Part shown: positions 16,871 to 28,518 of the stretch, piece by piece
Numbering within the stretch: the first letter of the stretch is position 1
Layout of the letters: the number at the start of each line of letters is the position of its first letter
Assembly (NCBI GenBank): GCA_029265905.1
Contig: JAJUGR010000016.1
Span: 1 to 48,320 of the forward strand
Direction of reading: 5' to 3'
DNA from: Sporomusaceae bacterium
GTDB taxonomy: Bacteria > Bacillota > Negativicutes > Acidaminococcales > JAJUGR01
Length of the DNA: 48,320 bases
Notes under the pieces: generated by a model
What the model was told of the DNA's origin: nothing
The model's input: the letters and a program-made list of their open reading frames with translations, nothing else
Database searches by the model: none
Translations under genes and position numbers: made by a program

Positions 16871-18682
16871 TTAATTGTTTGTTGCTTCAATTGCTTCGAT
16901 TTCTTCTTCGGCGCCTTGGCTGGCCGGAACTTCTTTTGCCAGTCTGAACCAGCTGCGCACGCAGTCGACCAGAACGACGCAGATCAAGGCGAACATAATC
17001 AGGCTGACCGTGACCAGCAGGTAGTTTTTAGCCGGCCAATAGATGTTGACGATGTTCAGGTAATCGGCAGTGAAGGTAACGGAAGCCAGGAACACCATCG
17101 GAACGATCGTAACCCAGGCGTACCGGCCGCGTCCCATGCGGAAGAGCACTGTCGTGCCGATGGCCAAGGTCATCGTTCCCAGCAGCTGATTGGAGACGCC
17201 AAACAGCGGCCAGATGGTGGAGATGTTGCCTTGCAGCACCAGGTAACCCCAGGAGCCGCAGATCAACGCGCTGGTGAAGACAATGCCAGGCAGCCAGTGC
17301 GGGTTTTGAAGCGGTTTGTAGATTTTGCCGCCCATTTCCTGCAGCAGATAGCGTCCGACGCGCGTGCCGGCGTCAATGAGGGTCAGGATGAACAGGGCCT
17401 CAAACATGATGCAGAAGTGGTACCAGTAGGACATGAGCGATTCCATGCCCGGGATCCGGGAGAAAATGTGCGCCATGCCGACGGCCAGGGAAACCGCGCC
17501 GCCCGGGCGTCCGGCAATTTCTTCGCCGACCATATGGGCCAAAGCCGGCAGTTCCTGCACTTGCATGCCCAATTTAGCAAATGCAGCCGGAGTGGAGTTG
17601 ATAGCAAAATAGTCGGCCGGTTGCAAGCTTGTGGCAGCGATCAAGGCCATCAGCGCGATGAAGCTTTCAACCAGCATTGCACCGTAGCCAATGGGGAGAA
17701 TTTCTTTTTCGTTGGTCAGCATTTTCGGCGTCGTGCCGGTGCTGATCAGGGAATGGAAGCCGGATAACGCGCCGCAGGCAATGGTGATGAAGACAAACGG
17801 CCAGGCGGGACCGCCGATAACCGGGCCGCCGCCGTGCACAAACTGCGTGAAGGCCGGCATGTTGATTTCTGGTCTGACCAAAATAATGCCCAGGGTCAGT
17901 GCGCCGATGGTGCCGATTTTCATGTAAGTGCTGAGGTAATCGCGCGGCGCCAGCAGGAGCCATACCGGCAGGGCAGCGGCGAAGAAGCCGTAGATCGCCA
18001 GCATGATGGAGAGCTGTTTGATGTTGAACGTAAAATACGGAGCGAGCCAGGAGTCGGCGACGTATGGGCCGACGAACACGGCGCCCAAGACCAGCGTTAC
18101 GCCAAGCACCGTTGCTTCCTGTATTTTGCCGGGGCGCAGCCAGCGCAGATAAATGCCGATAAAAATCGCGATTGGAATAGTAGCGCCGACGGAGAAGGTG
18201 CCCCAGGGGCTGTTGTACAGAGCGTTGGCTACAACGACTGCCATGCCGGCCAGCGTGATGACCAGCATCGCCAACACCGCGATTGAGGCGCAAAAGCCAG
18301 ACACCTTGCTAACTTCCGCTTTGGCGATTTCGGCGACTGACATCCCGTCATGGCGGACAGATGCGAACAAAATGACCATGTCATGCACAGCGCCGGCAAT
18401 AACAGCGCCGATCAGCAGCCACATCGTGCCGGGCAGATAGCCGAACTGTGCGGCAATAACCGGACCAACCAGCGGGCCGGCACCGGCAATGGCGGCGAAG
18501 TGATGGCCGAACGTGACCCATTTGTTGGTCGGAACGTAGTCCCGTCCATCGTCAAGCCTTACGGCCGGCGTGGACCGGTTTTCGTTCAGAGTGAGCACTT
18601 TAGCGGCAATAAAAGAACCATAAAGACGGTAAGCGATTGTTAGCCAAAGCGCCGCAATGATAACCAGGTAAATACCGTTCAC
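16871..18682 (-). CDS. cstA: CstA family carbon-starvation / pyruvate transporter
   Basis: Polytopic membrane protein of 603 residues, matching the shorter Firmicutes CstA form rather than the roughly 700-residue enteric forms. The family signature runs through NKWVTFGHHFAAIAGAGPLVGP near residues 53-74 and the domain GTMWLLIGAVIAGAVHDM after it. CstA and BtsT proteins take up pyruvate or peptides. GTG 18682 is preferred because AGGAGGGG lies six bases upstream; an in-frame ATG at 18721 has no ribosome site. The lytS-lytT pair lies just upstream on the same strand but is separated by a terminator, so cstA has its own promoter, probably activated by LytT through direct repeats at 18783-18813. 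Confidence 0.93.
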   Translation of the reverse strand: MNGIYLVIIAALWLTIAYRLYGSFIAAKVLTLNENRSTPAVRLDDGRDYVPTNKWVTFGHHFAAIAGAGPLVGPVIAAQFGYLPGTMWLLIGAVIAGAVHDMVILFASVRHDGMSVAEIAKAEVSKVSGFCASIAVLAMLVITLAGMAVVVANALYNSPWGTFSVGATIPIAIFIGIYLRWLRPGKIQEATVLGVTLVLGAVFVGPYVADSWLAPYFTFNIKQLSIMLAIYGFFAAALPVWLLLAPRDYLSTYMKIGTIGALTLGIILVRPEINMPAFTQFVHGGGPVIGGPAWPFVFITIACGALSGFHSLISTGTTPKMLTNEKEILPIGYGAMLVESFIALMALIAATSLQPADYFAINSTPAAFAKLGMQVQELPALAHMVGEEIAGRPGGAVSLAVGMAHIFSRIPGMESLMSYWYHFCIMFEALFILTLIDAGTRVGRYLLQEMGGKIYKPLQNPHWLPGIVFTSALICGSWGYLVLQGNISTIWPLFGVSNQLLGTMTLAIGTTVLFRMGRGRYAWVTIVPMVFLASVTFTADYLNIVNIYWPAKNYLLVTVSLIMFALICVVLVDCVRSWFRLAKEVPASQGAEEEIEAIEATNN

Positions 18683-18721
18683 AAAAACCCCTCCTGTTTT
18701 CTGAATTATTGATTTGTTCAT

Positions 18722-18813
18722 AATATAACTTGCCTAGCTGAATTGATAAACAAAAAGCCGGTCAACAGGTCAATTTGCGGGTTGAATGGAAATATAGCCG
18801 GGTGAATGGAAAT
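18722..18813 (-). promoter_or_regulatory. cstA promoter with tandem LytTR-type direct repeats
   Basis: On the minus strand a -10 box TATATT (18722-18727) follows a weak -35 TTTATC (18745-18750) by 17 bases. Upstream lie two perfect 11-base direct repeats, TGAATGGAAAT in plus-strand sense, at 18783-18793 and 18803-18813, spaced 20 bases apart. LytTR regulators bind pairs of direct repeats on the same DNA face, about two helical turns apart, and activate promoters with weak -35 boxes. The adjacent LytT is the obvious candidate; binding itself is inferred. Confidence 0.6.
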
Positions 18814-18823
18814 GAAAAATGGA

Positions 18824-18852
18824 CAAAAAGAAAGGGCGCCCTGCGGCGCCCT
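18824..18852 (-). terminator. Terminator after the LytTR regulator gene
   Basis: AGGGCGCC at 18833-18840 and GGCGCCCT at 18845-18852 form an 8-base-pair stem; on the minus strand a T-rich run follows (18824-18832). The stem includes the stop codon of the regulator gene and separates it from cstA. Confidence 0.8.
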
Positions 18853-19621
18853 AGTTGATTCCGAGCAAATCTTTGATTTTTTTGATTTGGCCTTTGCCCA
18901 CCGGCACTTCAATGCAGTTGCGGCTTCCCGGCAAAGAGAGCTTAAGCCAGTAGGTTCCTTTAAACCAAGGGACAACCTCTTTGACCTTTCCCATGTGCAC
19001 GAGATAGCTTCTGTGCACACGGGTGATGGCCGTCCCTTGCAACCGCTCCTGCAAGGCCGCGAGGGTGCCGGAATAGTTATATTCTCCCGTATCGGCGACG
19101 ACCGCGACGGCGCCGTCCTGCGTGCCAATGTAGATAATATCGTCATAGCTGATCAGGATGATTTTGCCGTTTTTTTCGACCGCCAGCTTGTTGACTGGCT
19201 GCTTGCCAACCGCCAGAAGGGTTTGATCAAGCCGGTTTGCCGCTGCCTGCCATTCGTCCGGATGATACTTTTCCAAGCGTTTAACGCTTGCTGTCACCCG
19301 CTCGCCGTCGAAGGGCTTAAGCAAATAATCGATGGCGCCAATTTCAAAAGCCCGAATGGCGTATTCGTCATAAGCGGTGGCGAAAACAATCAGGGTTTTG
19401 GGCAAAACGGTTCTCAGGGCTTGGGCGGTATCAAGGCCATTCATGCCGCGCATCTGTATGTCCAAAAAGACCACATCCGGCTGTAGCTGGGCGGCGAGGC
19501 CGATGGCGGCCGGACCACTGTCCGCCTCGCCAATGACGGCGATGCCGGCTGCTTTGGACAACAAAAAAATGAGTTCGTCACGGGCCGGTTGTTCGTCGTC
19601 GACCACAATTGCTTTAAGCAT
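18851..19621 (-). CDS. lytT: LytTR-family response regulator
   Basis: Two-domain DNA-binding regulator of 256 residues. The receiver domain (about residues 1-120) has the acidic pocket DDE at 8-10, the phosphorylated aspartate in VFLDIQMRGMNG near residue 54, and Lys in LLKPF near 103. The C-terminal LytTR domain (about 150-256) holds ALQERLQGTAITRVHRSYLV-type residues, quoted in part: the HRSYLV motif is characteristic. It overlaps the 3' end of the kinase gene by 8 bases, showing translational coupling. Its likely target is the cstA promoter directly downstream. The symbol follows the LytS/LytT naming; BtsR- or LytR-type names are equally possible. Confidence 0.92.
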   Translation of the reverse strand: MLKAIVVDDEQPARDELIFLLSKAAGIAVIGEADSGPAAIGLAAQLQPDVVFLDIQMRGMNGLDTAQALRTVLPKTLIVFATAYDEYAIRAFEIGAIDYLLKPFDGERVTASVKRLEKYHPDEWQAAANRLDQTLLAVGKQPVNKLAVEKNGKIILISYDDIIYIGTQDGAVAVVADTGEYNYSGTLAALQERLQGTAITRVHRSYLVHMGKVKEVVPWFKGTYWLKLSLPGSRNCIEVPVGKGQIKKIKDLLGIN

Positions 19622-21314
19622 AAGCAGTCACCTCATCATTCAGTTTTTTGGGCACGAGCATGGCAATCCTTGTGCCGTGGTCGGGCTGACTGGTGATGCT
19701 TAGGCCGTAGCCGTCGCCATATTGGCCGAGGAGCCGTTCGTGAACGTTGCGCAAGCCAATGCATTCTGCGCCGGGGGTTGTCAGCGGGTTGCGCGCGGAC
19801 AGGTCCATGCCCATCCCGTTGTCGGTGATGCTGATTTCAATGTTCTCGCCACGCTCGACGGCTTTTATTGCTAAAATGCCGCCGTCCGGCTTGGGCTGCA
19901 GACCGTGCTTGATGGCATTTTCCACCAGGGGCTGGATCGTCAGCGCCGGAATGAGATACCGTCCGAGACCGGCGTCGATGATTTCCGTAACCAGCAGCTT
20001 TTCGCCGTGGCGGGCCTGTTCGATTGACAGATAAGCGCGCACCTGCGCCAACTCTTCGTCGAGCGTAATGTTCCGGCCGGCTTTGTGCAAGGTGTAGCGG
20101 AAAATAGCGCTGAGCTTAATCAGCAAGTCGCGCGCTAAATCCGGTTTGGTGCGGACAAGGGAGGTGATCGTGTTGAGTGTGTTGAACAGAAAGTGCGGGT
20201 TGATCTGGGCATGCAAGGCCTTCATTTTGGCGTGCGCGGCCATTTTGGCCTGGTGCTCTATTTCCGTTAGCTCGAGTTGGGTGGAAAAGAGGTGGGCCAG
20301 TCCGCTGGCGAAAATTTGATCGGATTGGGCGATATTGTTTTTATGCGTATAGTAAAGTTTTAGCGCGCCGATCACCCGATCGCCGCACTTGAGCGGCGCG
20401 ATAATGGCGCTTGACAGGCGGCACCCAGCATGAGAGCAGCCAATGCCTTCCTTGTCCTGCGCGATCTGCAGTTCGCCGGTTGCGAGCACTTTGCGGGTCG
20501 CGGCTGTCAGCTGAGCGGCAGATGGCGGTGCGTGGTGATTGCTTTCGGCGCCGGCGAAGGCCAGCACGCGCTCCATATTCGTTATGGCCACGGCGTCGTA
20601 ATCGGTGGCGGACAGGATAATTTGCACCGTTTTTTGCGCCGAATCGTCGTTGAGGCCGCGTCTCAATACGGACAAGGTTTTGTTGGCGATGTGGAGCGCT
20701 TTGTGCGACTGTTCAGCGCCGATTTTCTCCTGGCCGGCGCCGACTGTTTTGATGATCAACATAAAAACGGACAGGCCGATCGAGTTGGCGACAATCATCG
20801 GCATGGCGATTTCGTCGACAAGGGCGGCGGCCAGGTAGTAAGGCTGCGCCGTCAGGAGAATGATGCCCATCTGCATAACTTCGCCGATGATGCCGGCCAC
20901 GAGCGCCAGCCACCAAGGGATAGGGCGGCGCGGGTACAAGCGGTGCACCAGTCCGGCCAGCAGCCCCTCGCACAGATTGGCCAGCGCGCAGGCAAAGGCG
21001 GTGAAGCCTCCCAGCAGGTAGCGGTGACCGCCGGCAATGATTCCCGCAGCGGCGCCCATGGCTGGGCCGCCGATCAGTCCGGCCGACATCACGCCGACAA
21101 CGCGGGAATTGGCCAGCGCATCGTTTACCGGGATGCCGGCATAGGTTCCGATGATGCCGACAAGACCGAAAAATACCGTCAATAGCCAGGCGTCCAGACG
21201 TGTGTTGCGGCGGTTGATCAACCGCCTGAAGATGTCTGTCTGCGACAGCACAAAAGCGAGCGTTGCGGCCACGCTGATCCGTTCAATCATTTCCCATAAT
21301 AAAAGTTTTGTCAT
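19614..21314 (-). CDS. lytS: LytS-type sensor histidine kinase
   Basis: Membrane sensor kinase of 566 residues. The first 190 residues form the 5TMR-LYT sensor module of several spans with the motif NDALANSRVVGVMSAGLIGGP (two pieces around residues 62-85). A GAF domain (about 225-350) carries the cysteine-containing GIGCSHAGCRLSSA typical of this kinase family. The dimerisation and phosphate-accepting segment is QINPHFLFNTLNT near residues 370-382, and the ATPase domain follows with EPLVENAIKHG-like N-box (QPLVENAIKHG) and DNGMGMD. Relatives (BtsS, YpdA, Bacillus LytS) respond to pyruvate. ATG 21314 follows a GGGGGT box. It is divergent from the P-type ATPase gene. Confidence 0.93.
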   Translation of the reverse strand: MTKLLLWEMIERISVAATLAFVLSQTDIFRRLINRRNTRLDAWLLTVFFGLVGIIGTYAGIPVNDALANSRVVGVMSAGLIGGPAMGAAAGIIAGGHRYLLGGFTAFACALANLCEGLLAGLVHRLYPRRPIPWWLALVAGIIGEVMQMGIILLTAQPYYLAAALVDEIAMPMIVANSIGLSVFMLIIKTVGAGQEKIGAEQSHKALHIANKTLSVLRRGLNDDSAQKTVQIILSATDYDAVAITNMERVLAFAGAESNHHAPPSAAQLTAATRKVLATGELQIAQDKEGIGCSHAGCRLSSAIIAPLKCGDRVIGALKLYYTHKNNIAQSDQIFASGLAHLFSTQLELTEIEHQAKMAAHAKMKALHAQINPHFLFNTLNTITSLVRTKPDLARDLLIKLSAIFRYTLHKAGRNITLDEELAQVRAYLSIEQARHGEKLLVTEIIDAGLGRYLIPALTIQPLVENAIKHGLQPKPDGGILAIKAVERGENIEISITDNGMGMDLSARNPLTTPGAECIGLRNVHERLLGQYGDGYGLSITSQPDHGTRIAMLVPKKLNDEVTAYA

Positions 21315-21482
21315 ATTGATACCCCCGTTCTTTCAAGATAACACTTTACCGGGGCGCTGGCAATTGCCTTTGCATTGCTTCAGCGAGACGGCGGGAGAAT
21401 AAATCTCTGCGGGAGGAGGGTATTTGTCATGCAACGGGGAAAATAACACCATCACGTACCTTCGCTTAAGGAGGTGTCGATT

Positions 21483-24269
21483 TTGGCTGGTCATAATCGA
21501 CGTGCAAATTTCGCCGCTTTTACTGAGGCGGCTGTTCTGGCAGCATTGCAAACGCAACGTTCTGGCTTGACGGCGGACGAAGCCGCGGCGCGACTGAGGC
21601 GGCATGGACGCAATGAGTTGCCAAAGGCGCCCGGCTTGTCTTTAGTGAGGCAGTTGTTTAAGCAGTTGTTTCATTTCATGGCGCTGCTGTTGTGGCTTGC
21701 CGGCGGCTTGGCCTTTGCGGTCGACATGCCGGAATTGGGGTGGACGACGTGGACGGTCGTTGTTGTGAATGCTCTATTCAGTTTCTGGCAGGAGTACCAG
21801 GCTGACAAGGCGTTGGCGGCGCTATCGGCAATGTTGCCGCGCAAGGTCAAGGTCTATCGCGGCGGACGCCTGGAGCAAGCACCCGCTGTGGAGATTGTCA
21901 TCGGCGATATCCTGTCGCTGGAGGCGGGGGATCAGGTGCCGGCCGACGCAAGGTTGCTCGTGGCGGAAGAAGTACGGGTTGACTTGTCATTGCTGACGGG
22001 TGAATCGCTGCCTGCGGCGTGTCACGCGGCGCCGACCGCCATAGACGAACAAAGCAGCGCTTGGAGCGCCAACTTGCTGTTTGCCGGGACGACTGTTGTT
22101 GCCGGAAAAGGCTTGGCGGTTGTCTATGCTGTCGGCAAAGATACAGAATTGGGCAAGGTTACAAAGCTGACCGCTGGGGTGGCGAGGGAAAAAAGCTCGC
22201 TGGAGGTACAGGTTCGGCGCATCGTGCGCTTTGTTACAACAATCGCTTTGGTCATGGGGGCGGTTGCCTTCGCGCTGGCGGCGGGATGGATGAACATCGA
22301 CGTGCGGTCGAGCTTCATATTTTGCATTGGCATCATCGTCGCGAACGTGCCGGAGGGATTATTGCCGACGGTCAGTCTGTCTTTGGCAGTTGGCGTCAGG
22401 CGCATGGCGCAGCACAACGCGCTGGTGCGAAAATTGTCAGCGGTTGAATCACTTTGTGCGACCGACGTAATTTGTACCGACAAGACAGGCACGATTACGA
22501 TGAATGAGGTGACGGTTAAACACCTTTGGCTGCCGGAAGGAGAAATTGAGGTCTCCGGGAACGGGTACGAGAAACAGGGAGAACTGCTTAACCGGCCGCC
22601 GGAATTGGCGCTGCAGACGGAACTGCTTTTGACGGTGGGCGTTGTTTGCTCAGATGCCGAGATTCGGTCCGTCAGCGCGTCTGACGCGCTGTGGGATATT
22701 CTTGGCGATCCGACCGAAGTGGCGCTATTGGTGGCGGCAGAGAAAAATGGACAAGCGGTGAGCGCTGTGCGGGGCTGCTTTGATCAACGACAGACGAAAC
22801 CGTTTAATCCGGCGCGTAAGATGATGAGCGTTTTGTGCGTGAACCGCGCCAGTCCGCTGTTTGCAACGGGCGCCAAAGTAGCGTTTGTTAAAGGGGCGCC
22901 GCCGGAAACACTGCAACAATGCCGGTTTGTCAGATGTGCCGACGGTGCGGTCGTCATGACGGAGCAGCACCGGACGGCGATCTTGTCTGCCAATGAACGG
23001 CTCGCTGGCGCCGGACATCGCGTATTGGCGCTTGCTTACAAGGAAGGCGCGTGCGACTGGGAGACGGGTGAACAGGAACTTGTCTTTGTCGGTTTGGCCG
23101 CTATGATTGATCCGCCGCGCCCAGAAGTGGCGGCGGCTGTGGCGCTTTGCCGCGAAGCCGGCATTCGGGTCACGATGATTACCGGCGACTATGGCTTGAC
23201 TGCGGCGGCGGTAGGCAGGCAAATCGGCCTTGTCCGCGATGGGGTGACCGTTGTTACGGGGGCGGAGCTAGATCAGCTAGAGCTAGAAGGGTTCCGCGAC
23301 TTGCTCCGCCAAGACAGACCGCTTATTTTCTCCCGCACAACGCCGGAACAGAAACTCAAAATCGTACAGGCATACCAAGCCTGCGGACATGTGGTCGCCG
23401 TGACCGGCGATGGAGTCAACGATGCACCGGCGTTAAAAGCAGCGGATGTCGGCATCGCCATGGGGCGAGGCGGCACTGATGTGGCGCGGGAGGTAGCGCA
23501 TATCGTCTTATTGGACGATCACTTTGCCACGATTGTGAAGGCCATCGAACAGGGGCGGGCCATTTACGACAATATCCGCAAGTTCATGACCTATATCTTG
23601 GCCTCCAACGTCCCGGAGATAGTGCCGTTCATCGCCATGGTTTTTGCCAAAATCCCGCCGGCCTTGACCATACTTCAGATTTTAGCCATTGACGTTGGCA
23701 CGGATATGGTACCAGCCCTGGCTTTAGGCGCAGAAGTGCCGGAAAAGGGGAGTCTGCGGCGCCGGCCCGCCGATTACACAGGCAATCTGTTGGACAAATC
23801 ACTTTTTCTTCGCGCCTACGGTTTTCTGGGGATGATTGAGGCGGGACTGTCGATGGGGGCGTTTGCTTTTGTTTGGGGGCAATACGGTTTTACTCTAGCG
23901 GATGTGCAGGCAGTGACGCCACAGATTTTATCCAATGAGGCAGAACTTTATGTGCTGGAAGCGTACCGGCATGCGACGACCATGGCGCTGGCGGCGATCA
24001 TCGCCTGTCAAATCGGCAATGTTTTTGTCTGTCGGTCGGAACGGACGCCGGTTTGGCAGCTGCCGCTGGCGAGCAACCCCTTGATTTTGATTGGCATTGG
24101 CACCGAAATTGCCATTGCCGCAGCTTTGCTGTACCTGCCCTTTTTGGCGGCTGTGTTTTTTACGCATCCCCTGGCTTGGGCTGATGCGCCTGTTTTACTT
24201 TTATGTCCGATAATTGTTGTTGCATTGGAAGAATTGCGTCGATATGTTGTCCGGTGGTTGCGCTGGTGA
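21483..24269 (+). CDS. P-type cation ATPase with Na,K-ATPase-like (P2C) cation sites
   Basis: Membrane cation pump of 928 residues. It has an N-terminal cation-ATPase domain, TGES in the actuator domain, the phosphorylation motif DKTGTIT with Asp333, and the hinge TGDGVNDAPALK. The ion-site segments resemble animal Na,K-/H,K-ATPases: NVPEGLL with Glu291 in span 4, SNVPE with Ser708, Asn709 and Glu712 in span 5, and DVGTD with Asp737 and Asp741 in span 6. These match Na,K-ATPase E327, S775, N776, E779, D804 and D808 with identical spacing from span 5 to span 6. Bacterial SERCA-like pumps usually have PEGLP instead. TTG 21483 is chosen: TAAGGAGGTG is at 21467-21476, and the GTG at 21474 lies inside it. 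No beta subunit gene is adjacent. The transported ion is inferred to be Na+ and/or K+. Confidence 0.9.
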   Translation: MAGHNRRANFAAFTEAAVLAALQTQRSGLTADEAAARLRRHGRNELPKAPGLSLVRQLFKQLFHFMALLLWLAGGLAFAVDMPELGWTTWTVVVVNALFSFWQEYQADKALAALSAMLPRKVKVYRGGRLEQAPAVEIVIGDILSLEAGDQVPADARLLVAEEVRVDLSLLTGESLPAACHAAPTAIDEQSSAWSANLLFAGTTVVAGKGLAVVYAVGKDTELGKVTKLTAGVAREKSSLEVQVRRIVRFVTTIALVMGAVAFALAAGWMNIDVRSSFIFCIGIIVANVPEGLLPTVSLSLAVGVRRMAQHNALVRKLSAVESLCATDVICTDKTGTITMNEVTVKHLWLPEGEIEVSGNGYEKQGELLNRPPELALQTELLLTVGVVCSDAEIRSVSASDALWDILGDPTEVALLVAAEKNGQAVSAVRGCFDQRQTKPFNPARKMMSVLCVNRASPLFATGAKVAFVKGAPPETLQQCRFVRCADGAVVMTEQHRTAILSANERLAGAGHRVLALAYKEGACDWETGEQELVFVGLAAMIDPPRPEVAAAVALCREAGIRVTMITGDYGLTAAAVGRQIGLVRDGVTVVTGAELDQLELEGFRDLLRQDRPLIFSRTTPEQKLKIVQAYQACGHVVAVTGDGVNDAPALKAADVGIAMGRGGTDVAREVAHIVLLDDHFATIVKAIEQGRAIYDNIRKFMTYILASNVPEIVPFIAMVFAKIPPALTILQILAIDVGTDMVPALALGAEVPEKGSLRRRPADYTGNLLDKSLFLRAYGFLGMIEAGLSMGAFAFVWGQYGFTLADVQAVTPQILSNEAELYVLEAYRHATTMALAAIIACQIGNVFVCRSERTPVWQLPLASNPLILIGIGTEIAIAAALLYLPFLAAVFFTHPLAWADAPVLLLCPIIVVALEELRRYVVRWLRW

Positions 24270-26712: not shown

Positions 26713-27882
26713 ATGATCAGGTTCAAGTTTCCAGGCAGCCAGGTGCCGGTCTATTCTTGGGCAAGCGACATTGATGCGGCAGCAAAAGAGCAGGTTGAAC
26801 ATTTGTCAAAACTGCCGTTTGCCTATGATCATATCGCAATCATGCCGGATTGCCACAGCGGATACGGCATGCCGATCGGCGGCGTGCTGGCCGCCGATAA
26901 CGTGATCATCCCCAATGCGGTGGGGGTCGATATTGGCTGCGGCATGATTGCTGTTAAGACGACGCTAACCGAGGTTACGGTGGAACAAATTAAACGGATC
27001 ATCGGCGAAGCGCGAAAAATCATCCCTGTCGGCTTCAACCATCATAAAGAGCGGCAGGAAAGTCCTGTATTTGACCATGTGCCTGACGTTGAGATCATTC
27101 ACATTGAACTGGATTCTGCCCGCCACCAGATTGGAACCTTGGGGTCAGGGAACCACTTTGTTGAGATTCAAGCCGGAGACGACGGGTTTATTTGGCTGAT
27201 GATCCATTCCGGAAGCCGGAATATCGGCAAAAAGGTATGCGATTGCTATAATGAAATGGCGGTAGGGTTGAACGCGCGCTGGAAGGTGGCGGTGCCAGCC
27301 GCGTGGGATTTGGCATATCTGCCGGTCGACACGCCGGAGGCGCAGGAGTATCTGGCGGCAATGGAATTTTGCCTGCGGTTTGCAAAAGCAAACCGGGCGC
27401 TGATGATGAAACGGCTAAAGGAGATTGTATTTGAAGTTGCCGGCGGCATGCAGCAAGCGGAAGAAATTTGCACGCACCACAATTATGCCGCATGGGAAGA
27501 GCATTACGGAAAACGCGTGCTAGTCCACCGCAAGGGCGCCATTCGCATGTTCAAGGGGGATATCGGCATCATTCCCGGCAGCATGGGAACGCCTTCGTAC
27601 ATTGTGAAAGGCTTGGGCAATCCGGACTCGTTCATGTCGGCATCGCATGGCGCTGGCCGAAAAATGAGCCGGGCGGAAGCGGACAAAACAATTTCCGTCG
27701 AAGAAGCCGACAAGGCAATGCGCGGAATCGTATATGGCCGCTGGAACCGTGACCGAAAGGGCCGCTTGGATTTGTCGGAATGTCCGTTGGCCTATAAGGA
27801 CATTGAAGAGGTGATCGAGCTGGAGCTTGATCTGATTAGACCGATTGTTAAGCTTCGGCCGCTGGGGGTTTTAAAGGGTTAA
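26713..27882 (+). CDS. rtcB: RtcB RNA ligase (3'-phosphate/5'-hydroxyl)
   Basis: GTP- and Mn2+-dependent RNA ligase of 389 residues that joins 2',3'-cyclic phosphate or 3'-phosphate ends to 5'-hydroxyl ends, as in tRNA repair. Metal ligands lie in VGVDIGCGM (Asp73, Cys76) and in the HHNYAAWEEH region; the guanylylated histidine is His312 in SASHGAGR. MPDCHSGYGMPIGGV near residues 40-54 is a further family signature. AGGGGTG precedes ATG 26713. An 82-base gap separates it from the ylxP-like gene. It is followed 33 bases later by thpR, whose product acts on the same type of RNA end. No RtcA or RtcR is present. Confidence 0.96.
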   Translation: MIRFKFPGSQVPVYSWASDIDAAAKEQVEHLSKLPFAYDHIAIMPDCHSGYGMPIGGVLAADNVIIPNAVGVDIGCGMIAVKTTLTEVTVEQIKRIIGEARKIIPVGFNHHKERQESPVFDHVPDVEIIHIELDSARHQIGTLGSGNHFVEIQAGDDGFIWLMIHSGSRNIGKKVCDCYNEMAVGLNARWKVAVPAAWDLAYLPVDTPEAQEYLAAMEFCLRFAKANRALMMKRLKEIVFEVAGGMQQAEEICTHHNYAAWEEHYGKRVLVHRKGAIRMFKGDIGIIPGSMGTPSYIVKGLGNPDSFMSASHGAGRKMSRAEADKTISVEEADKAMRGIVYGRWNRDRKGRLDLSECPLAYKDIEEVIELELDLIRPIVKLRPLGVLKG

Positions 27883-27915
27883 CCACGACAGGGGCGGCAA
27901 GGAGGGGGGACAGGG

Positions 27916-28518
27916 ATGCGGTTATTCATTGCAATTACTTTTTCCCAGGCGGTTCTGACGGCGCTGATTTCATTGCAAGCAAAACTGCAAGCCCTGTTAA
28001 CCAGGGGGCGTCTGGCACGTTCTGACAACCTGCATCTGACCTTGCAGTTCTTGGGCGAAACGCCGGCAGAAAAAATTCCAGCCATCGTTGCAGCGCTGGC
28101 AGAAGTGGCGAATACGAGTGCGGGGTTTGACCTCTCTTTTGGCGAGCAATTGGGCTATTTCGGGCGCTCATCCTTGGCGCGGGTGATCTGGCTGGGGATC
28201 GGAGAAGGGGGGGCGTCGTTACAGGTTCTGCAAAGCAAGGTTGCCGCCGCCGTGAAAGCGTTGGGCCTTCCGGATGAACCAAATGCCTATGTGCCGCATA
28301 TCACGCTTGCTCGCGATGCCCGCTTTGGTCGTCCGGAACTGCTGCAAAACGGATGCGTTTGTTGGAATACGGGCGCGCTGCCGAAACAAAGCGTGAGCAG
28401 CTTTTCCTTGTTTGCCAGCAGCCTTGAAAGCGGGCGGCGCGTGCACCGCTGCCTGGCGACATTCAAGCTCGCGGCTTCGGGCGCCGGTGACGCCGCGCCG
28501 CCCCCGGCAAAGTTGTGA
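27916..28518 (+). CDS. thpR: RNA 2',3'-cyclic phosphodiesterase (LigT/ThpR)
   Basis: Two-H phosphoesterase of 200 residues. It carries both HxTx motifs: HLTL with His40/Thr42 and HITL with His128/Thr130, arranged in two similar halves. ThpR opens 2',3'-cyclic phosphates on RNA ends to 2'-phosphates; some relatives were described as 2'-5' RNA ligases. AAGGAGGGGG lies in front of ATG 27916. It follows rtcB directly, so the two are probably co-transcribed. The last 20 residues are alanine/proline-rich and look unstructured. A new promoter follows for the next gene. Confidence 0.93.
   Translation: MRLFIAITFSQAVLTALISLQAKLQALLTRGRLARSDNLHLTLQFLGETPAEKIPAIVAALAEVANTSAGFDLSFGEQLGYFGRSSLARVIWLGIGEGGASLQVLQSKVAAAVKALGLPDEPNAYVPHITLARDARFGRPELLQNGCVCWNTGALPKQSVSSFSLFASSLESGRRVHRCLATFKLAASGAGDAAPPPAKL

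Follow-up and report, generated by a model that had tools for sequence, protein, structure and literature searches.

A P2C-like P-type ATPase from a Sporomusaceae bacterium with the site I and II residues of the animal Na,K-ATPase and an altered third-site region

A contig of a Sporomusaceae bacterium (JAJUGR010000016.1; the 48,320 nucleotides analyzed are referred to as the window) encodes a P-type ATPase that is a relative of the Na,K-ATPase, but not an animal-type Na,K-ATPase. Its residues at ion sites I and II are those of the animal pump and its third-site region is not. From these residues and from its position in phylogenetic trees we infer, with moderate confidence, that the protein is an alpha-only pump that extrudes Na+ and countertransports K+. 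The gene and the parts of it discussed below are as follows; NKA denotes animal Na,K-ATPase numbering.

21468..21475, + strand: putative Shine-Dalgarno sequence AAGGAGGT, about 8 nt 5' of the TTG start, read from the sequence
21483..24269, + strand: P2C-like P-type ATPase gene, 928 aa, TTG start (open reading frame, profiles, trees and model)
22350..22364, + strand: span 4 PEGLL (residues 290-294), E291 = NKA E327 (alignment)
22479..22481, + strand: catalytic aspartate D333 of DKTGT, the phosphorylated residue, invariant in a 47-protein alignment
23592..23594, + strand: Y704 = NKA Y771 of site III (alignment; 59/59 relatives)
23604..23618, + strand: span 5 SNVPE (708-712) = NKA S775, N776, P778 and E779 (alignment)
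23691..23705, + strand: span 6 DVGTD (737-741) = NKA D804, T807 and D808 (alignment)
23838..23840, + strand: span 7 E786, at the position of the site-III glutamine NKA Q854 (alignments, column counts)
24009..24032, + strand: span 8 QIGNVFVC, Q843 = Q923, I844 = W924, N846 = D926 and C850 = C930 (alignments, column counts)
24105..24107, + strand: span 9 E875 = NKA E954 (alignment)

The earliest start of the open reading frame is an in-frame GTG at 21474. Since AAGGAGGT overlaps this GTG and ends about 8 nt ahead of the TTG at 21483, the TTG is the likely start, in agreement with the original prediction, which had placed it there; the ribosome-binding sequence is a strong one. Domain profiles found the complete P-type ATPase domain set in the product.

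Profile searches gave an ambiguous picture of the family. The best curated profile was TIGR01106 (Na,K/H,K alpha) at 532 bits, which does not reach its cut-off of 946, and the best archaeal score for this profile among the members examined was 771 bits. Two calcium-pump profiles were only 24 bits behind (508 vs. 532), and the ortholog L078 scored higher with a PMR1-type calcium profile than with TIGR01106 (541 vs. 516 bits); both observations count against a Na+/K+ reading. Because the lead is small and L078 prefers the calcium profile, profiles alone do not settle the family, and its placement as P2C-like is decided by trees. Among sequences of solved structures the best match was the Na,K-ATPase (478 bits), followed by SERCA (437) and LMCA1 (427). 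An AlphaFold2 model built from 47 sequences (pLDDT 83.5, pTM 0.74) had the Na,K-ATPase E1.3Na+ structure 8jbk as its top fold match (TM 0.87), with SERCA at TM 0.85; this predicted similarity supports the fold, does not bear on the substrate and does not separate the window ATPase from SERCA.

We computed three maximum-likelihood trees, one with a P3A outgroup and two under mixture models. The original prediction had made its case depend on a position outside the SERCA-like P2A clade, and the window ATPase indeed fell outside the bacterial P2A proteins with support of 100/100 in both mixture-model trees, while in the P3A-outgroup tree the P2C-like clade was separated from P2A with an SH-aLRT of 100. 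Human ATP1A3 and ATP1A4 were nested in the P2C-like clade beside archaeal pumps (100/95 and 99/93), the latter sampled from one phylum around a Methanoculleus genome. The closest kin of the window ATPase are other Negativicutes proteins (63-66% identity), found in only a few of the 251 genomes of the class. Next come cyanobacterial proteins (49-50% identity), joined with the Negativicutes branch at 100/99 and plasmid-borne in Nostoc and Picosynechococcus PCC 7002, and the P2C-like clade has further representatives among Chloroflexota, Pseudomonadota, other Bacillota and archaea. An AU test did not reject the query clade as the earliest P2C-like branch (p 0.07), nesting within P2A being outside the scope of that test. 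On a conjugative Nostoc plasmid (L143, 304-2949) there are two nearby P-type ATPases with a gene for a PspC-domain protein between them, the upstream ATPase having an unusual set of membrane motifs.

Residues were mapped by HMMER alignment to the human ATP1A3 and ATP1A4 chains and by MAFFT alignments. All six correspondences proposed originally were recovered (E291 with E327, S708 with S775, N709 with N776, E712 with E779, D737 with D804 and D741 with D808), as was the equal spacing, 28 residues separating N709 from D737 and likewise N776 from D804, in alignments with no gap from span 5 to span 6. In the alignment the window ATPase is thus identical to the animal pump at sites I and II, which lie on spans 4, 5 and 6. 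We then counted columns in 59 P2C-like and 57 P2A-like prokaryotic proteins; proteins were assigned to the sets according to whether position 804 is D or N, which makes that column circular. Leucine at L330 is present in 53/59 P2C-like and 0/57 P2A-like proteins, proline at P778 in 51/59 and 0/57, and glutamate at E954 in 53/59 and 0/57; Y771 and Q923 are each present in all 59 P2C-like proteins. The expectation that ordinary bacterial P2A pumps have PEGLP agreed with the counts, proline occupying the L330 position in 55 of the 57. Because position 804 changes only once on the tree and columns outside the set definition (P778, E954) separate the two sets cleanly, the match to the animal ion-site residues exceeds chance.

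The serine S708 had been taken as a sign of a Na,K-like cycle. It is present, where H,K pumps have lysine, but serine at S775 also occurs in 7/57 P2A-like proteins, and we rejected it as a diagnostic on its own; judged from the alignments, P778 and D804 are diagnostic, unlike S775 alone. The P2A signature (NxxTD in span 6, NxGE in span 5 and PEGLP) was not found in the window ATPase, which has DVGTD, NVPE and PEGLL in its place. Two groups of relatives depart from the common pattern. In one sub-branch (L054-L057, L090, L095 and L096, from one Bacillota genus and Chloroflexota), YIFAHLxPEA and GTE replace SNxPE and GTD, and since this puts H at S775, L at N776 and E at D808, its ion selectivity is probably different. 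A second (L060-L063) combines PEGLP with SHNxxE, DLGSD and a glycine at E954, which mixes the P2A and P2C signatures.

These data bear on the proposal that the protein is a P2A-type calcium pump with convergent residues, which the close P2A profile scores and the global fold common to both would favor. We regard this as very improbable, given the 100/100 separation in the trees and the absence of D804, P778, L330 and E954 from the bacterial P2A proteins sampled. In addition, the same genome already encodes two separate, ordinary P2A pumps with NLV[TS]D (L003 and L004), and calcium export is therefore otherwise covered. Two more adjacent P-type ATPase genes lie elsewhere in this genome (G000:C26:46300-49399; L007 and L005), one with NLLYD and SNFGNM motifs, perhaps Mg2+-ATPase-like, and the other with PEEFP and IHIPI and without the usual ion motifs.

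The third sodium site differs. The original prediction had proposed a check of spans 8-9 for equivalents of D926 and E954: E954 is kept, as E875, but D926 is asparagine (N846). With W924 replaced by I844 and E953 by T874 as well, the window ATPase does not carry the whole animal ion site. Equivalents of the site-III-related Y771, Q923, C930 and E954 are retained in the alignment, and the span-7 site-III glutamine Q854 is a glutamate, E786, so that the pocket has six carboxylates, as many as that of the animal pump, one of them being on span 7 instead of span 8. No prokaryotic relative has D926 (0/76; the 59 plus 17 further proteins, 5 + 12 new). The combination of E854 with N926 is found in 40/59 P2C-like proteins and in 38/44 of those with intact sites I and II, while Q854 with N926 is found in 9/59. 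Proteins with Q854/N926, and hence neither site-III acid (L152-L155, L157, L088, L089, L091, L093 and L102), could serve as natural controls for a role of E786.

The consequences of such changes are known from animal pumps. When D926 is neutralized in human alpha3 (D923N), the affinity for Na+ falls by a factor of more than 100, and site III does not form in an H,K background unless W924 is present (PMC9463140); in simulations with D926 neutralized, Na+ selectivity was lost (PMC5026471). Four substitutions, K794S, A797P, W at 943 and R949C (non-gastric H,K numbering), jointly convert an H,K pump to a 3Na:2K pump (PMC9463140), and of these the S, P and C are present in the window ATPase and the W is absent. 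We propose that Na+ would be moved out and K+ back through the classic phospho-enzyme cycle, with D333 phosphorylated; spans 4, 5 and 6 would form sites I and II just as they do in the animal pump. The Na+-only third site would be altered by the loss of the span-8 acid and the gain of the span-7 acid. Because neutralization of D926 lowers Na+ affinity and selectivity in animal pumps, this site may have been either rebuilt or lost: E786 may stand in for D926, giving a 3:2 exchange, or the site may be gone, giving an electroneutral 2:2 exchange, and our data favor neither stoichiometry decisively.

Loss of the site, with some other role for E786, is a real possibility, although we give it somewhat less than an even chance; it is a sub-case of Na+/K+ exchange, and its likelihood overlaps with that of the exchange as a whole. 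The asparagine at D926, in light of the animal mutants, the H,K-type isoleucine at W924 and the relatives with neither acid all point toward loss. Against it, the window ATPase keeps the E954, Q923, Y771 and C930 equivalents and has a new acid at a site-III-coordinating position (Q854, equivalent to Gln873 of the non-gastric H,K-ATPase), and retention of E954, Q923 and Y771 in 53, 59 and 59 of the 59 relatives is not the drift expected of a dead site. The archaeal sisters of the animal pump and its nearest bacterial branch (L131) have E/N at 854/926, and for this reason the animal Q854/D926 state looks derived in our alignments, in which animals are the only eukaryotes. We tentatively suggest, as a minority possibility, that the ancestral P2C third Na+ site consisted of the span-7 glutamate and the span-8 asparagine, that the animal line shifted the carboxylate to span 8 (Q854/D926, plus W924), and that prokaryotic pumps may transport three Na+ by way of a site of different construction, with no beta subunit.

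The isoleucine at W924 is also the H,K-pump residue, which could suggest a proton/potassium exchanger. This seems improbable, as the H,K signature (Lys at S775 and Arg at C930) was not found in the window ATPase, which has S708 and C850 at these positions, and the span-5 proline is present. Somewhat less remote, though still unlikely, is efflux of Na+ only, or of alkali cations broadly, without K+ return, in the manner of the ENA pumps of fungi or the P-type Na+-ATPase of Exiguobacterium. One Na+-ATPase of the P-type has already been recorded from a bacterium (Ueno, 2000, as cited in PMC2928168), and an altered site III could change the use of the counter-ion; however, the P2D ENA profile (TIGR01523) scored a weaker 377 bits, below its cut-off of 645, and the K+-site ligands S775, N776, E779 and D804 are all kept. 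The Aphanothece Na+-ATPase was dropped as a precedent, being F-type according to its authors.

An alpha-only Na+/K+ pump, the reading we prefer, is consistent with the lack of the beta-assembly motif SYGQ/E in all 59 P2C-like relatives (0/59; it is present in both references), as in the published prokaryotic group (group I; PMC9609216). The beta-subunit profile PF00287 had no matches in the genome, nor in the control genomes, and no partner-like gene adjoins the ATPase. The ATPase gene is followed by Ogt and CorA genes, and its divergent neighbors encode a sensor kinase judged LytS-like from its sequence, a LytR/BtsR-type regulator and CstA; this stretch (window 16871-21314), with its CstA-family transporter, LytS/BtsS-like kinase and LytR/BtsR regulator, is a probable pyruvate-sensing cassette. 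Farther along (26713-28518), a gene for an RtcB-family RNA ligase is directly followed by one for a ThpR RNA 2',3'-cyclic phosphodiesterase; the two may form an RNA-repair pair. No conserved neighbor hinting at Na+ or K+ was found across the relatives examined, which counts against the Na+/K+ reading. Rfam searches detected no riboswitch anywhere in the window; next to the 20 scanned relatives they picked up just a pair of glycine riboswitches and one tRNA, with no RNA element indicating Na+/K+ control. A Na+ economy in the host is likely, since the genome encodes a Na+-decarboxylase beta subunit. The ATP-synthase c subunit (L140, 1474-1725, - strand) has an unusual acid pair, with GDS in helix 1 and IES in helix 2; we dropped it as a clue to the coupling ion, its residues fitting neither standard pattern clearly.

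Prokaryotic pumps of this kind are known already. Na,K-ATPase-like P2C pumps of methanogens and bacteria have been published (Palmgren, 2023, as cited in PMC10654040) and correspond to group I of Shahnazari (2022; PMC9609216), although the review describes the methanogen products as uncharacterized and the role of P2C pumps in archaea as an open enigma (PMC10654040). The window ATPase shares with them the clade, sites I and II and the absence of SYGQ, and differs in that its lineage, from Negativicutes, clusters with the cyanobacterial pumps and is separate from the archaeal sister branch of the animal pump. Relative to the animal alpha subunit, the closest solved fold, it has equivalents of E327, Y771, S775, N776, P778, E779, D804, T807, D808, Q923, C930 and E954, and differs in Q854 (E), W924 (I), D926 (N), E953 (T), the missing SYGQ and a score below the TIGR01106 cut-off. 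The non-gastric H,K-ATPase has the isoleucine at W924 in common with it, whereas the window ATPase has S rather than K at S775, P at 778, C rather than R at 930 and N rather than D at 926. Bacterial P2A Ca2+-ATPases (LMCA1, SERCA-like) share the architecture, E327, N776, E779 and D808, but have N at 804, G at 778, PEGLP, no E954 and mostly hydrophobic residues at 854. In the sister clade, the proteins of Picosynechococcus PCC 7002 (WP_012305489.1) and Nostoc C052 (WP_179069725.1), named only "cation-transporting P-type ATPase" in public records, have the same E854/N926; they differ in being plasmid-borne, in D (PCC 7002) or V (Nostoc C052) at W924 and, in PCC 7002, in A at P778. With this lineage, pumps of this type extend to Negativicutes and cyanobacteria, among them PCC 7002, a laboratory cyanobacterium whose gene is readily available for tests. 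We found no description of the E854/N926 pattern in the literature searched, which left out Palmgren (2023). According to a review, methanogens conserve every residue of the three Na+ sites (PMC10654040), whereas the archaeal members sampled here always have N at D926. The absence of D926 from all sampled prokaryotic relatives, together with the frequent glutamate at Q854, conflicts with the idea that prokaryotes already have all the animal ion ligands. The variation at site III is worth testing, and, given the D926/Q854 pattern, two point mutations would allow a test of how the 3 Na+ : 2 K+ stoichiometry arose.
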